Source of the DNA: Synechococcus sp. WH 8109
GTDB taxonomy: Bacteria; Cyanobacteriota; Cyanobacteriia; PCC-6307; Cyanobiaceae
DNA: 64,000 nt
Assembly (NCBI RefSeq): GCF_000161795.2
Contig: NZ_CP006882.1
Location: forward strand, 1,922,001-1,986,000
Reading direction: 5' to 3'
This document shows, one piece after another, positions 35,096 through 40,054 of this stretch. The notes under the pieces are model-generated. The model searched no databases, was not told the origin of the DNA, and saw only the letters and a program-made list of their open reading frames with translations. Position 1 is the stretch's first letter. Every line of letters starts with the position of its first letter. A program made the translations under genes and the position numbers.

Positions 35096-35695
35096 TCAGG
35101 GCTGAGGCGGGGTCACGGGCTCAATGACTTCGAAAAAGGCTTCCGCGCCATGAGGCAGCACAACAGGTTCCGGCTCAGCCACCAACACCGGTGAATCACC
35201 GTTTGGAACAACCACAGCAGGCATCACCTCGATGGACTCCTCAAGCAGCGCTTGGGAATGGACGTTGCTGTCATCGAGCTCGAGTTCAGGCTCCTGGGCC
35301 GATGAGGGGGCGGGTCCGTTGTCTTCCTCAAGCTCGGGGGCAATGGTTTGAGGGTCCGACCAGGCGGGGGCTGTCCAGACCGAGGGCTTGGGCGTCTCCT
35401 TGACCGGTGGCTTGGCCGGTCGGCTCTCAGCCTCGGCGGCTTCTAGGGCTGTGACATCCACTTGCAGAGATGAATCGTCGTCACTGAACCGGGCCCGAAT
35501 CTCCCGCAGGGAATCCCCTGGAAACGCGAGCGGTGTGAAGGCCTCAGGGACAGGGTTCTCAGCATTGGGCTGCAGCGTCAGCACCCGCTCGGTGATGCCG
35601 TAACCCAGGGCGAAACAACAACCAGCCACCAGGGGCCCCACCCAGAAACTTGCCTTGGCCTCGACGGGAGCTTCAGGGGAGCTGGGATTGTCCAC
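35096..35695 (-). CDS. Hypothetical single-pass membrane protein
   Basis: 199 residues: a short cytoplasmic start, one hydrophobic helix (about 15-35, FWVGPLVAGCCFALGYGITE) and a long acidic, Pro/Glu-rich tail with little predicted fold. The GTG start at 35695 is tentative. It lies 45 bp upstream of the 103-residue gene. It is the last gene with normal GC before the AT-rich island. No family is recognised. Confidence 0.6.
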   Translation of the reverse strand: MDNPSSPEAPVEAKASFWVGPLVAGCCFALGYGITERVLTLQPNAENPVPEAFTPLAFPGDSLREIRARFSDDDSSLQVDVTALEAAEAESRPAKPPVKETPKPSVWTAPAWSDPQTIAPELEEDNGPAPSSAQEPELELDDSNVHSQALLEESIEVMPAVVVPNGDSPVLVAEPEPVVLPHGAEAFFEVIEPVTPPQP

Positions 35696-35746
35696 TGATG
35701 GGTCTGACGGTGACTCGGATTGTGACAGGGATTCAGAACAGAAGCT

Positions 35747-35793
35747 TCAGGTGGTGTAGTAGGCGTTGATGCATTGCCTCAGGCATCGCCAGA
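35747..35793 (-). pseudogene. Decayed copy of the argJ 3' end (left boundary of AT-rich island)
   Basis: On the minus strand this reads TCTGG-n2-ATGCCTG-n-GG, then, after a gap of about 18 bases relative to argJ, GCATCAACGCC-TAC-TACACC-ACC-TGA. The real argJ end (38802-38870) reads the same elements: TCTGG-n2-ATGCCTG-n-GG, then GCATCAACGCC-GAT-TACACT-ACG-TAA. Eighteen of the 21 bases around GCATCAACGCC match, the INAxYTT-stop end is preserved, and the tryptophan codon of argJ has become TGA. Both copies point the same way and bracket the AT-rich segment. The match was found by eye. Confidence 0.6.
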
Positions 35794-35803
35794 ATCGTCT
35801 GTA

Positions 35804-36040
35804 ATGCCTTTGAATCCTCTTGATGATGACGATGTACCAATCGAGGATTCAACACCGTTAGGAGCGATTGTGGAAGGAGTAGAAGAGTCACATTCACCAT
35901 CTCCAGAAGATGATGAGCGCAATCGTGAATATCTAATTCGTCGTACTGCTCTTGGCGACAATCCAACTCAAAAGGAGATGGATGCAGTTGTGGCGTATGG
36001 GTTAGAGCAGCACAGGTATAACTTCCCGCATCTTTATTGA
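35804..36040 (+). CDS. Small acidic hypothetical protein
   Basis: A 78-residue ORF from the ATG at 35804 (10 more residues if a TTG at 35774 is used, but that overlaps the argJ remnant). The N-terminus is very acidic (PLNPLDDDDVPIEDSTPL), followed by a charged helix (PEDDERNREYLIRRTALG) and QKEMDAVVAYGLEQHRYNF. Base composition is lower in GC than the flanking core genes. It could be a real island gene or chance; no family is recognised. Confidence 0.45.
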   Translation: MPLNPLDDDDVPIEDSTPLGAIVEGVEESHSPSPEDDERNREYLIRRTALGDNPTQKEMDAVVAYGLEQHRYNFPHLY

Positions 36041-36110
36041 CTTCAATTAAACAAATGATTATATAACTTGCAGGATTTTGGAAATTATCTCAGGGTTGAT
36101 TAAAATAATT

Positions 36111-38216
36111 TCACGTCATTGGATTGCCATACCATGCAATACCTTCATTTAGCCAATTTGCATCCTGATCCAAAAGGCTTTGTTCGTAAGTACTGGTTGA
36201 ATAAAGATGGCTGCCAGTTCCTTTATTGAGATATCGAACAACAGCAACCGCATTGTCGATGTATTCAATTGTATTGAAAGCAGTAAAAGCCTTTCCCTCG
36301 TATTGCCAGCCTGCATCAGCTAGTGTCTGATTGTTAATAATAAGATCTCTTTCGCTCGTAAGAGCCGTGTAAAAGTGTCGATTTTCCGAAGATACATAAA
36401 AACGGAAGATATCAGCTGTTGCTACCCCAGGTTCATAGTAGACAGTACCTTCGTTCTCCCATCCACTGCCTGTCAATATGTCTATTTCATTCTGATTGGA
36501 TGAAAATAAATGCTTGCCTTCAGAGGTGTTATGAAGCCTGCAAATAGAACTAGTACCTCTTTTCACAACCTCAACGCCAGATGGAAGTACAGAAAGGTCA
36601 AAAGATGGCTCAGCCGAAACACTAATAGATTGCAAGTTGTTGTTATAGTTGAACGCAGTCACTGAAACTGCAGTCACACTATCTGGGATGTCTACTTTAA
36701 GTAAATTGGAGTCCCAAAAAGCAGCAGAATCTATAGTAGTCACGCTATTTGGTATTTCCACGCTTAATAGTGGATTATAGGTAAGTGTCTGTTCTCCAAT
36801 AGTGCTAATTCCATGAGGAATCTTAACATGTAAGAGATTATTATTAGAAAATGCATGACCACTCAGAGATTTCACTCCATACGGAATTTCTAAGGTATGC
36901 AAGTTATTTCTACCAAAAGCAAGTCTTCCGATTGTTGTTATGCAATTCGGAATTTCAACGCTCAACAAGCCTTTATTGTAAAAAGCCTCATCGGCAATTG
37001 AAGTATAAATTTCAGGTATTACGATATGCAGTCCTTGTTCATCAATTAACGCTTGTGCCAACTCCTTAGTTAATACATTTTCATCTATTCCAGGAGAAGA
37101 GGGTATGACTGGGAGAGTGCGATCATCAGATAAAGAAACTGAGGTGTCTTGTGAGGTTCTATACGTAACTTGAGTACCCTCTATGCCTTCCAAGAGTACC
37201 TCAAGACTAAATAATGGATTCTGGGGAACGATAAAAGTTTCTGGGCGACTAAATGCATATGTGCCCAACGCAAATACACTATCTGGAATGCTTACACTTT
37301 CAAAATTATTGCCATAAAAGGCGAATTGACCGATATATGTTACTGATTTTGGTATGCTGATTTCTTTCAGAGAATTAGTATCAAAAGCCATTCTCCCAAT
37401 GCTAATAAGCCCAGTCGGCAGCTCTATACTTGCAAGACTATTTTTGTAAAAAGCATTCTGACATATATGCTTGACGCTTTTCGGCACAGACAGGCTTGTA
37501 AGCGAGTTTTCCGAAAAAGCGTATTCTCCTATGACTGTTATGCCTTCAGGGATAACAACACTTTTGATTCCTTTTCCCTTGAAAGCATTGTTATCAATAA
37601 TTGTATAAGTATCAGGTATAATGACGTCTAATCCTTGCTCATTGATTAGTAATTGAGCAAGAGACTTTGTGAGAATTGTTCCTTGGTTTCTTTTTTTGAT
37701 ATCAACGCCGGATGGAAGCTTAGACAGTTGAAAGGCTGGCTCACTGGGGACACTAATGAATTCAAAACTATTTCCATAGAATGATGAATTTCCGATAGTA
37801 GTTACACTGTCCGGTATCTTCAGGTATGTCGAGGAATTCCCTAGAAATGCATAATCACCTATTGAGCTAACACCTTCTGGTATCAGTATCCTATTGATAT
37901 TATTTTTTTCAAATGCGTTTTCACCAATAGTCGTAAGAGTATGGTTGCTGCCGAACGAAAGACTAGTGATTTTATTATCATAAAAAGCGCCTACGCCAAT
38001 TGATGTGACGCCAATAGGAATTTCTACACTCGTCAAAGAATTTCTCGCAAATGCGTATGCTCCAATTGAAGCAATGCTGTCGGGGATAAATACTGTTTGC
38101 AGGCCTACATTCTGAAATGCTCCGCCTTCGATAGATGTATAATTTTCTGGTATATGTATATTCAAGCCTTGCTCAGCAATCAAGGAGTTGGCAATGGCTT
38201 TAGTTAGCGTTGTCAC
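36111..38216 (-). CDS. BspA-type leucine-rich-repeat protein with C-terminal DUF5648-like domain
   Basis: 701 residues in clearly AT-rich DNA. Three long modules begin at about residues 4, 182 and 382 with the same header (LTKxxAxxLIxEQGLxxxIPxxYTxI). Each carries a run of about 22-residue BspA/LRR_5 repeats (pattern xIPxSVTxIGxxAFxxNxL). Modules 1 and 3 end in EPxFxLSxLPSGVxxxKR. Residues about 557-701 hold three copies of a HLYSTS/HFYTALT-type unit followed by WxxEGxA, as in the DUF5648 domain. No signal peptide or membrane segment is visible. Such proteins often mediate binding to surfaces or other proteins. The start is GTG, with a stop six codons upstream. Confidence 0.88.
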   Translation of the reverse strand: MTTLTKAIANSLIAEQGLNIHIPENYTSIEGGAFQNVGLQTVFIPDSIASIGAYAFARNSLTSVEIPIGVTSIGVGAFYDNKITSLSFGSNHTLTTIGENAFEKNNINRILIPEGVSSIGDYAFLGNSSTYLKIPDSVTTIGNSSFYGNSFEFISVPSEPAFQLSKLPSGVDIKKRNQGTILTKSLAQLLINEQGLDVIIPDTYTIIDNNAFKGKGIKSVVIPEGITVIGEYAFSENSLTSLSVPKSVKHICQNAFYKNSLASIELPTGLISIGRMAFDTNSLKEISIPKSVTYIGQFAFYGNNFESVSIPDSVFALGTYAFSRPETFIVPQNPLFSLEVLLEGIEGTQVTYRTSQDTSVSLSDDRTLPVIPSSPGIDENVLTKELAQALIDEQGLHIVIPEIYTSIADEAFYNKGLLSVEIPNCITTIGRLAFGRNNLHTLEIPYGVKSLSGHAFSNNNLLHVKIPHGISTIGEQTLTYNPLLSVEIPNSVTTIDSAAFWDSNLLKVDIPDSVTAVSVTAFNYNNNLQSISVSAEPSFDLSVLPSGVEVVKRGTSSICRLHNTSEGKHLFSSNQNEIDILTGSGWENEGTVYYEPGVATADIFRFYVSSENRHFYTALTSERDLIINNQTLADAGWQYEGKAFTAFNTIEYIDNAVAVVRYLNKGTGSHLYSTSTYEQSLLDQDANWLNEGIAWYGNPMT

Positions 38217-38546
38217 TATCTTTTGCAGATTTCACTCATAATAATTTCTAGTCGTGATCTCGGAAAGAATTTTTGTATTTTTTTATCTCCATGCTTAATG
38301 GCGATAGATGCAGAAGCAATAGAGATGTCGAGAAGTCTTTTCATGTGCTGAAGCCGCTTAGCGCAGCAACCACATCAACTCCATTTTGCTAAAAAGTTAT
38401 GTGGATGCACAAGGAAATAAAGGGCACCTAGAAAAACGGCAGAAATTTCTGAAGTGCATTAAATACATCCTTGTACATACTATTGCCCCCATACCAACAC
38501 ATCCAAGCACTTAATTGGGAAGAATTATGTTAACTAGAAGTAGATA

Positions 38547-38678
38547 ATGCCTGGCAAGTATTACTTTGCCGTACTTATTGCCAGCACAGAAGCGCTATCT
38601 CGAGAACCTTTGTATCCCAATGAACATCTCACGGGAATCATTGGTTCTCTATCTGTAAGCGTTGTTCCGCGATATTGA
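38547..38678 (+). CDS. Possible 43-residue ORF
   Basis: ATG at 38547, TGA at 38676. The product begins MPGKYYFAVLIASTEALSRE and ends SLSVSVVPRY. It has no strong ribosome-binding site (a weak AGAAG is about 10 bases upstream) and no recognised family. Open frames of this length arise by chance in AT-rich DNA, so this is listed only because nothing else occupies the gap. Confidence 0.2.
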   Translation: MPGKYYFAVLIASTEALSREPLYPNEHLTGIIGSLSVSVVPRY

Positions 38679-38734
38679 CTGCAGTTCTTGTTGCTTTCGG
38701 TAGACTGGAGTAGGCAACAGTTACGTTGCTGAAG

Positions 38735-38755
38735 GGTGTTACCGGGGTGTTACCC
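38735..38755 (+). repeat. Short tandem direct repeat
   Basis: GGTGTTACC occurs at 38735-38743 and again at 38746-38754, an 11-bp period. It lies about 50 bp outside the argJ stop, inside the right edge of the AT-rich island. It could be a protein-binding site or chance. Confidence 0.5.
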
Positions 38756-38801
38756 GAAGAACTCAATCCCTAAGAAAGGCCACGGCCACAGGGTTCTTGG
38801 C

Positions 38802-40004
38802 TTACGTAGTGTAATCGGCGTTGATGCGCACGTACTGATCCGACAGGTCACATCCCCAGGCATGACCAGAGCCGGAACCATGCCCTAGGCCGAGGCGAAT
38901 CGGAACATGCTCCTGCCGCAGAACGTTGCTGGCTGCAGCGCGATCAAAGGCCACGGGTTGACCAGCCGCCATCAATTGATGGGGACCAATCCAAAGAGCA
39001 ACCGCATCCGGATCGAAGGACACACCAGAGCGACCCGCAGCCGCCACGATCCGCCCCCAGTTCGGATCCCGGCCATGGACTGCGGTCTTGACCAGGGACG
39101 AACCACAGACCGTGCGAGCCACCCTCAACGCCGCGGCCTCGTCAACCGCACCCTCCACTTGCACCTCGATCAGACAGGTCGCCCCTTCGCCATCCCGGGC
39201 AATGGCCTGGGCCAGCTGTTGCATGGCCTGGGTGAGGCCCTGTTCCAGAACGGCATGGTGTTGTTGGCCCAGCGGTGGGCCTGCCGCAAAGGCCAGCACG
39301 GTGTCGTTGGTGCTGGTGTCTCCATCAACGGTGATGGCGTTGAAGGAACGCTGCACCGCACGCAGCACCATCCCCTGCCAAACGCCGGCATCGACGCCGG
39401 CATCGCAACTGAAAAAGCCGAGCATCGTGGCCATGTCGGGATGAATCATTCCCGAGCCTTTGGCCATCCCTCCAATTCTCACTCGGCGCCCCTCCAGCTC
39501 CAGTTCAAGCGCCACCTGCTTGTCCACCAAATCGGTAGTGAGGATGGCGTTGGCTGCAGCATCGCCACCCGCGTCATCCAAGGCCTCCACCAAGGGAGCC
39601 AACCCAGCCAGAAGGGTGGGCATCGGAATCGGCACACCGATCACGCCGGTGGAGCAGATCAACACCGACTCCGCATCGACGCCGATCTGATCGGCAAGCA
39701 CCTGGGTGGCGCGCTGGCTGTCGACCAAGCCGCGATCCCCGGTGCAGGCATTGGCCTGACCGGAGTTGATCAACACGGCACGGGCCTGGCCGCCTTGGCT
39801 GAAGAGGCGATCACGGCAGAGATCAACACAGGCCGCCCGCACCAAGGAGGTGGTGAAGGTGCCCGCACAAACCGCCGTCTCTGGGGCCAAAACCAGCGCC
39901 AGATCAGGTTTGCCCGAGGGCTTCAGGCCGGCCACGATGCCTGCCGCCTGGAACCCATTCGGTGCCGTCACACCACCCGGAATCGGTTGCCAAGAGGAAG
40001 CCAT
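38802..40004 (-). CDS. argJ: Bifunctional ornithine acetyltransferase / N-acetylglutamate synthase
   Basis: Recycles the acetyl group from N-acetylornithine to glutamate in arginine synthesis; bifunctional members also use acetyl-CoA. About 400 residues. The self-cleavage site region is KGSGMIHPDMATMLGFF (nucleophilic Thr in MATML). VLINSGQANACTGDRG and FNAITVDGDTSTNDT are also typical. The end is INADYTT. The ATG at 40004 is chosen over 40040 because SSWQPIPGGVTAPNGFQAAG matches the family start. It is divergent from coaE by 50 bp. A decayed copy of its 3' end lies at 35747-35793. Confidence 0.95.
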   Translation of the reverse strand: MASSWQPIPGGVTAPNGFQAAGIVAGLKPSGKPDLALVLAPETAVCAGTFTTSLVRAACVDLCRDRLFSQGGQARAVLINSGQANACTGDRGLVDSQRATQVLADQIGVDAESVLICSTGVIGVPIPMPTLLAGLAPLVEALDDAGGDAAANAILTTDLVDKQVALELELEGRRVRIGGMAKGSGMIHPDMATMLGFFSCDAGVDAGVWQGMVLRAVQRSFNAITVDGDTSTNDTVLAFAAGPPLGQQHHAVLEQGLTQAMQQLAQAIARDGEGATCLIEVQVEGAVDEAAALRVARTVCGSSLVKTAVHGRDPNWGRIVAAAGRSGVSFDPDAVALWIGPHQLMAAGQPVAFDRAAASNVLRQEHVPIRLGLGHGSGSGHAWGCDLSDQYVRINADYTT

Positions 40005-40054
40005 CACCACCGCTGATCCGCCGCGACACACTGGGTGCATCCTGCTCCGACACC

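Follow-up and report, generated by a model that had tools for sequence, protein, structure and literature searches.

The window, a 64,000-nucleotide stretch of DNA from Synechococcus sp. WH 8109, contains an AT-rich island of ∼3.1 kb that lies between argJ and a 199-aa ORF, with a GC content of 0.37–0.42 as compared with about 0.6–0.67 in its surroundings (Table 1). Beyond the island, reading in the direction of argJ, the 199-aa ORF (35096–35695) is followed by an ORF of 103 aa and then by one of 550 aa, which we take to be of the ABC1 type. The cargo gene is open across all 701 codons, and its product is matched in Pfam by LRR_5 (E = 1.4e-91) and DUF5648 (E = 6.5e-28). A paralogue with 66% identity is present elsewhere in the same genome (L177; G000:C1:356903–358477), beside a remnant of the element gene that is represented in the window by the 88-aa ORF, and no argJ-type site was found in the 14 kb around it. 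The DUF5648 region of the cargo product has further matches in the same genome at G000:C1:1299181, 1318366, 1726752, 1835379 and 491642, two of which fall in very long ORFs (1794 and 2329 aa). The 88-aa ORF shares 83% DNA identity with a gene at locus L110, and its protein aligns with those of L110, L181 and L185. A full-length relative of this cut gene is also found at L175 (G007:C1:2282000–2298000), beside a distant integrase and with no argJ-type site, indicating that parts of the element occur at other sites. No tRNA was found in the 64-kb window, or in the argJ islands that were scanned (L108, L110, L113, L179 and L180). Examination of the ORFs, Pfam matches and locus comparison revealed no integrase in the window island; relatives have one at the argJ site. 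Because the integrase is absent, the island is referred to here as a relic and not as a complete member.

Table 1. Features of the argJ island and its flanks; positions are those of the window.
Feature	Position	Strand	Remarks
argJ, target gene	38802..40040	-	ArgJ above curated cut-offs; last codons and stop now element-derived
argJ-side crossover core ATCAACGCCGA (on minus strand)	38815..38825	-	agreement of near and far copies, 18 loci
Arm-type direct repeats GGTAACACCC, two units, period 11	38734..38754	-	47 and 58 bases past the argJ stop
Element right end	38424..38801	-	homologous to right ends of L185 and L181 (about 72–73% identity), L110 and L112
Cargo gene; BspA-type leucine-rich-repeat protein of 701 aa, DUF5648 at its C-terminus	36111..38216	-	Pfam
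88-aa ORF, 3' part of a 262–307-aa element gene, cut at the far core	35774..36040	+	alignment with L110, L181 and L185
Far attachment site, displaced native argJ 3' end	35747..35773	-	34.9 bits; runs on into native flank
Native downstream flank and 199-aa ORF	35096..35746	-	directly after argJ in empty sites

The ends of the island carry a direct repeat of about 27 bp, comprising the 3' end of argJ and a displaced copy of it 3.05 kb away. The best local alignment between the argJ end and 35747–35773 extends over 22 columns, 19 of them identical, with a score of 29, a value that the repeat attains and shuffled sequence does not (0/100 dinucleotide shuffles of the island, maximum score 24). When both strands of the window were scanned with a position model of the argJ tail, only two sites scored above 10 bits, namely 38802 (42.0 bits) and 35747 (34.9 bits). 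Read in frame, the left copy encodes INAYYTT-stop and argJ INADYTT-stop. With a gene end on one side and its displaced copy on the other, the arrangement is that of a site-specific element, and the repeat is a pair of attachment sites. Together with the contrast in GC content, these data uphold the original prediction of an AT-rich island bracketed by the argJ 3' end and a same-direction copy. The repeat as first reported also took in 35774–35793, with an outer block TCTGG-n2-ATGCCTG, a tryptophan codon said to have become TGA, and some 18 bases thought to be missing between the two blocks. These three details had to be abandoned, since the bases concerned are coding sequence of the element gene, homologous to the L110 gene, which is not situated at an argJ site; 35774–35793 was rejected as part of the repeat.

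The state of the argJ site in relatives was examined in 27 genomes of the genus that have argJ, including that of the window. In 11 of these the 199-aa ORF lies 47–69 bp after the argJ stop, constituting an empty, single and intact site with no space for a second copy, which is the arrangement anticipated for island-free strains. The corresponding distance is 198–279 bp in another three, inserts of 1.2–10.6 kb are present at argJ in 11 (that of the window among them), and two (G016 and G019) were not judged. Past the core, five close empty sites share 51–61 of 65 bases with the left piece of the window and 20–25 of 65 with the piece on the argJ side. This identifies the left copy as the native end of argJ, and indicates that the gene's present end and its flank arrived with the element. 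The initial interpretation of the left copy as a remnant is thereby reversed. The argJ-side flank of the window island is common to islands L110 and L112. A further argJ-end copy was detected in seven of the 11 occupied loci of the genus (the window, L108, L109, L111, L112, L113 and L115), situated inside the insert and not at its edge in L108 and L113; no far copy was found in L110, L114, L116 and L117, the last three of which were scanned solely with a longer, stricter model. Multiple copies or two integrases are present at loci L193, L195 and L189, which suggests that elements stack at argJ. The argJ 3' end is a recurrent insertion site, and its proposal as an integration site agrees with the islands that relatives have there, in which integrases and displaced ends of argJ are present.

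Comparison of the near and far copies at 18 loci revealed agreement in 17–18 of 18 at nine of the eleven positions of ATCAACGCCGA, and in 12 and 14 of 18 at the other two, which are third-codon positions. The copies are less alike upstream (2–15 of 18) and diverge at the next synonymous positions (9, 13, 5 and 6 of 18). The crossover was placed in ATCAACGCCGA. The 11 bp of this core code for Ile-Asn-Ala-Asp, a portion of the C-terminus of ArgJ, which is conserved. Direct repeats with a period of 11 and a length of at least 6 bp, located 40–52 bp past the argJ stop, were present in 17/27 occupied sites, a set that includes the window as well as L179–L193, which had been chosen for integrase matches, and in 0/18 empty sites. 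Repeats of this period arose at that place in 14/5400 shuffles, and direct repeats with periods of 7–10 or 12–15 were not found there. The GGTAACACCC pair of the window occupies the standard place. The arm-type repeats would presumably be bound by the integrase.

At 17 integrase-side far ends, an exact-match rule identified two period-11 pairs in six, one pair in five and none in the remaining six. For ten elements, selected by eye among the 18 loci and including the near relatives L181 and L185 with relatedness uncorrected, motif agreement was 15.9/18 between the two ends of the same element versus 12.1/18 between elements, which was equalled in 0/20,000 permutations; L113, L111, L186, L187, L108, L109, L112 and the window fall outside this comparison. 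L113 and L111 were set aside since the repeat motifs at their two ends are different, and these may be composite islands, a reading that was made afterwards. No arm repeats were found at the far end of the window island, where the element-gene fragment abuts the core.

Integrases are present at argJ in relatives. That of L113 (genome G007) is 543 aa in length and starts 125 bp from a copy of the argJ end. A search with this sequence gave 40 positives among 300 genomes of the family, and matches of this type occur in 13 of the 59 genera sampled. Matches spanning 100 aa or more at an identity of 45% or higher were present in 21 family genomes, 14 of which, including G056 (L040), have argJ on the same contig; the match lies downstream of argJ on the opposite strand in all 14, within 10 kb in 13 and at 27 kb in one (G077). 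Among the other seven, six have the match on other contigs of draft assemblies and one genome gave no argJ match. An integrase of a second type, found at L108, L187 and L189, is encoded on the argJ strand and starts about 120–130 bp beyond the argJ stop. The L040-type integrase was detected in 4/291 genomes drawn from the class, all four belonging to the window's family. At the limits used, no integrase of the L113, L040 or L108 type was found in the window's own genome, which has four Phage_integrase matches elsewhere.

A copy of the argJ end lies near the start of 22 of 29 related integrase ORFs, the count being of ORFs of at least 300 aa in chosen stretches, outside which fall fragments and some of the 40 positives (e.g. 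G195, G287, G289 and G307). In L108, L187 and one L189 ORF this copy is argJ's own end, and the distances (13–166 bp, one of 436 bp) are rough, being measured from the first possible start. The 22 argJ-associated ORFs form one side of a single branch of the integrase tree (support 93/92), and association with argJ changes once on the tree, as compared with a mean of 6.4 changes when shuffled (0/500 shuffles as low). Of 30 short loci from the L113-type search, 24 contain an argJ-type end, which is argJ itself in L151, L154 and L155; none was found in L142, L143, L146, L149, L150 and L153, all of which are fragments or stop-bearing. Judging by these sequences, related ocean and freshwater cyanobacteria appear to use the argJ landing site repeatedly, with an insertion-enzyme family of their own.

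The Phage_integrase family of Pfam is above cut-off for the L113 and L040 proteins and below it for L108. An AlphaFold2 model of the L113 integrase, built with 18 sequences (mean pLDDT 75, pTM 0.56), has an N-terminal part of four strands and a helix, which would suit arm binding. The best fold matches of the model are tyrosine recombinases, namely XerA, XerH, the Tn1549 integrase and Cre, with E values down to 2e-6 and TM-scores over the query of just 0.21–0.35. R323, K360, R447 and H448 are invariant in the 18 integrase sequences, and Y444 and Y479 nearly so. Relatives of the L113-type integrase were not found in phage records or plasmids, nor, in a comparison sensitive to close relatives only, in viral contigs, and the argJ-end pattern was likewise not found in viral contigs. 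A PHROGs scan of seven island proteins returned matches to integrase, to entries of unknown function, to a metallo-protease (E = 0.009) and, for the cargo protein, to a virion structural protein (E = 0.008). A small serine recombinase-like family is present in 6/20 argJ islands compared (L108, L113, L179, L180, L186 and L188), and the two members that were scanned (L108 and L113) are both matched by Resolvase in Pfam.

The window island is collinear with those at L181 and L185 in its right end (38843–38424, about 73%), in the shared 3' part of the element gene (36038–35889, about 75%) and in the far site (35772–35749). Between the element-gene part and the far site the window lacks about 4.4 kb that is present in L185, comprising the remainder of the element gene, a further two genes, and the integrase with its adjoining end; at the joint, the element gene runs at GCATC into the far core. 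Neither L181 nor L185 has a match to the cargo-bearing middle of the island, and the ∼4.4-kb deletion is therefore a reading and not an observation. The most likely interpretation of the sequence is that the window island is a decayed derivative of the integrase-bearing elements, carrying the leucine-rich-repeat protein gene.

The pair of sites in the window, the empty sites of relatives, the native far copy, the arm-type repeats and the integrase-bearing relatives at argJ make it very probable that the island is what remains of a foreign integrative element, inserted long ago at the argJ 3' end by site-specific recombination catalysed by a tyrosine integrase. The central idea of the original prediction, site-specific integration at this position, is strongly supported by the empty sites, the shuffle test and the relatives' islands with integrases. 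Recombination of the following kind would account for the present arrangement. Bridging repeats and core, as in lambda-like systems, the integrase would recombine the argJ end of the element with that of the chromosome within the 11-bp core, so that argJ stays whole. Since the element would supply the final ArgJ codons in a version of its own, argJ would be rebuilt on entry and its native 3' end displaced to the far side. With the core held constant by the ArgJ C-terminus, the site would exist in every host. A later deletion ending at the far core would then have removed the integrase and the far arms, leaving the leucine-rich-repeat gene as cargo; this loss is the least certain step of the scheme, albeit one that we consider reasonably probable.

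The island could alternatively be still mobile, as an integrase-less, satellite-like element that is moved in trans by the integrase of a related element. Such a scheme would fit with the window, L110 and L112 sharing one right end while differing in cargo and having no argJ-type integrase in the island, with the intact argJ-side core and arm repeats, and with the open reading frame of the cargo. However, the far end is devoid of arm repeats and cuts through a gene, the genome has no integrase of the L113, L040 or L108 type at the limits used, and L110 is without a far copy of the site, and we regard mobility in trans as rather unlikely. The suggestion that the element was either decayed or mobilised in trans is thus narrowed, in that collinearity fits better with decay, whereas the common right end of the window, L110 and L112 leaves some room for movement in trans. 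It is very improbable that the argJ 3' end was partly duplicated, or that the insertion took some other route, such as transposition, homologous recombination or illegitimate joining, with no site-specific enzyme involved. The short-homology joint (GCATC) at the far core means that at least one non-site-specific event may have occurred there, but many unrelated islands have their junction at this 3' end, beside a dedicated integrase group, the fixed-distance repeats are confined to occupied sites, and the two argJ ends differ at synonymous sites, as would be expected of element-borne ends. Simple duplication of the argJ end was rejected in view of the junction shared by the relatives' islands, the association with integrases and the native far copy. 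Chance similarity of the two ends can practically be dismissed, for although 35774–35793 in the first-reported repeat was a coincidence, the left copy is one of just two high-scoring sites in the window, is not equalled in score by any shuffle, and continues into native flank.

Integration into a protein gene may not be confined to argJ. Weaker related integrases at L205–L208 (genomes G191, G162, G228 and G280), which are not at argJ, start about 150–270 bp past the 3' end of a ∼580–600-aa flavodiiron-like gene, a designation for which the L205 gene was the one scanned, with a score under the curated cut-off. The last 20 bases but two of the L205 gene recur exactly, as a 20-bp copy, 4.75 kb away. 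The best match to the gene end in L208 is 7.6 kb away and may belong to a neighbouring paralogue, and no displaced end was found in L206 and L207, where the best match is without the gene's last bases. It is likely, then, that the flavodiiron-like gene is a second protein-gene integration site. A broader and more tentative proposal, to which we give somewhat less than even credence, is that these are widespread, undescribed picocyanobacterial elements with tyrosine integrases at the 3' ends of conserved metabolic genes and not at tRNAs, an argJ clade and a flavodiiron-like sister clade, in which the arm motif diverges together with the element, allowing different elements to stack at a single gene free of cross-talk, and members that lack an integrase, the window island among them, are carried along in trans. 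An integration site in a protein gene, served by a dedicated group of integrases, provides a second route for island gene gain besides tRNA sites, to which tycheposons (Hackl, 2023) are reportedly also tied. PMC10187409 likewise links the gain and swapping of picocyanobacterial island genes mainly to tRNA sites. The sites allow the exact limits of the argJ islands to be drawn, and the changing repeat motif provides a natural data set on the co-evolution of integrases and their binding sites, and allows mobilisation in trans of islands lacking an integrase to be tested directly.

Insertion at the 3' ends of genes is already known, and argJ appears as the site in no paper found in a literature search of partial coverage. 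Tycheposons are reported to be small integrative elements that diversify picocyanobacterial islands at tRNA sites; they resemble the argJ elements in being small integrative elements within picocyanobacterial islands and differ in that the site here is a protein gene. Tyrosine-integrase islands have lambda-like core and arm sites. The general kind that rebuilds the gene it enters is described in PMC12884075, and argJ is absent from the main texts of PMC10187409, PMC7522525 and PMC12884075. The argJ islands resemble that kind in lying at a gene 3' end, in the rebuilding of the gene with its displaced end on the far side, and in having an integrase near one end, direct arm-type repeats and matches to the tyrosine-recombinase fold. 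They differ in that the target is argJ, in that the repeat motifs vary between elements, and in that the argJ integrases form a group, with proteins outside argJ sites showing no more than 29% identity to the L040 query. The picocyanobacterial integrase element of Flamholz et al. adjoins tRNA-Phe or tRNA-Cys, according to PMC10187409, and is similar to the argJ elements in having a divergent tyrosine integrase within marine picocyanobacterial islands and a small serine recombinase nearby, as in the six argJ islands above. The two are set apart by site, argJ as opposed to a tRNA.
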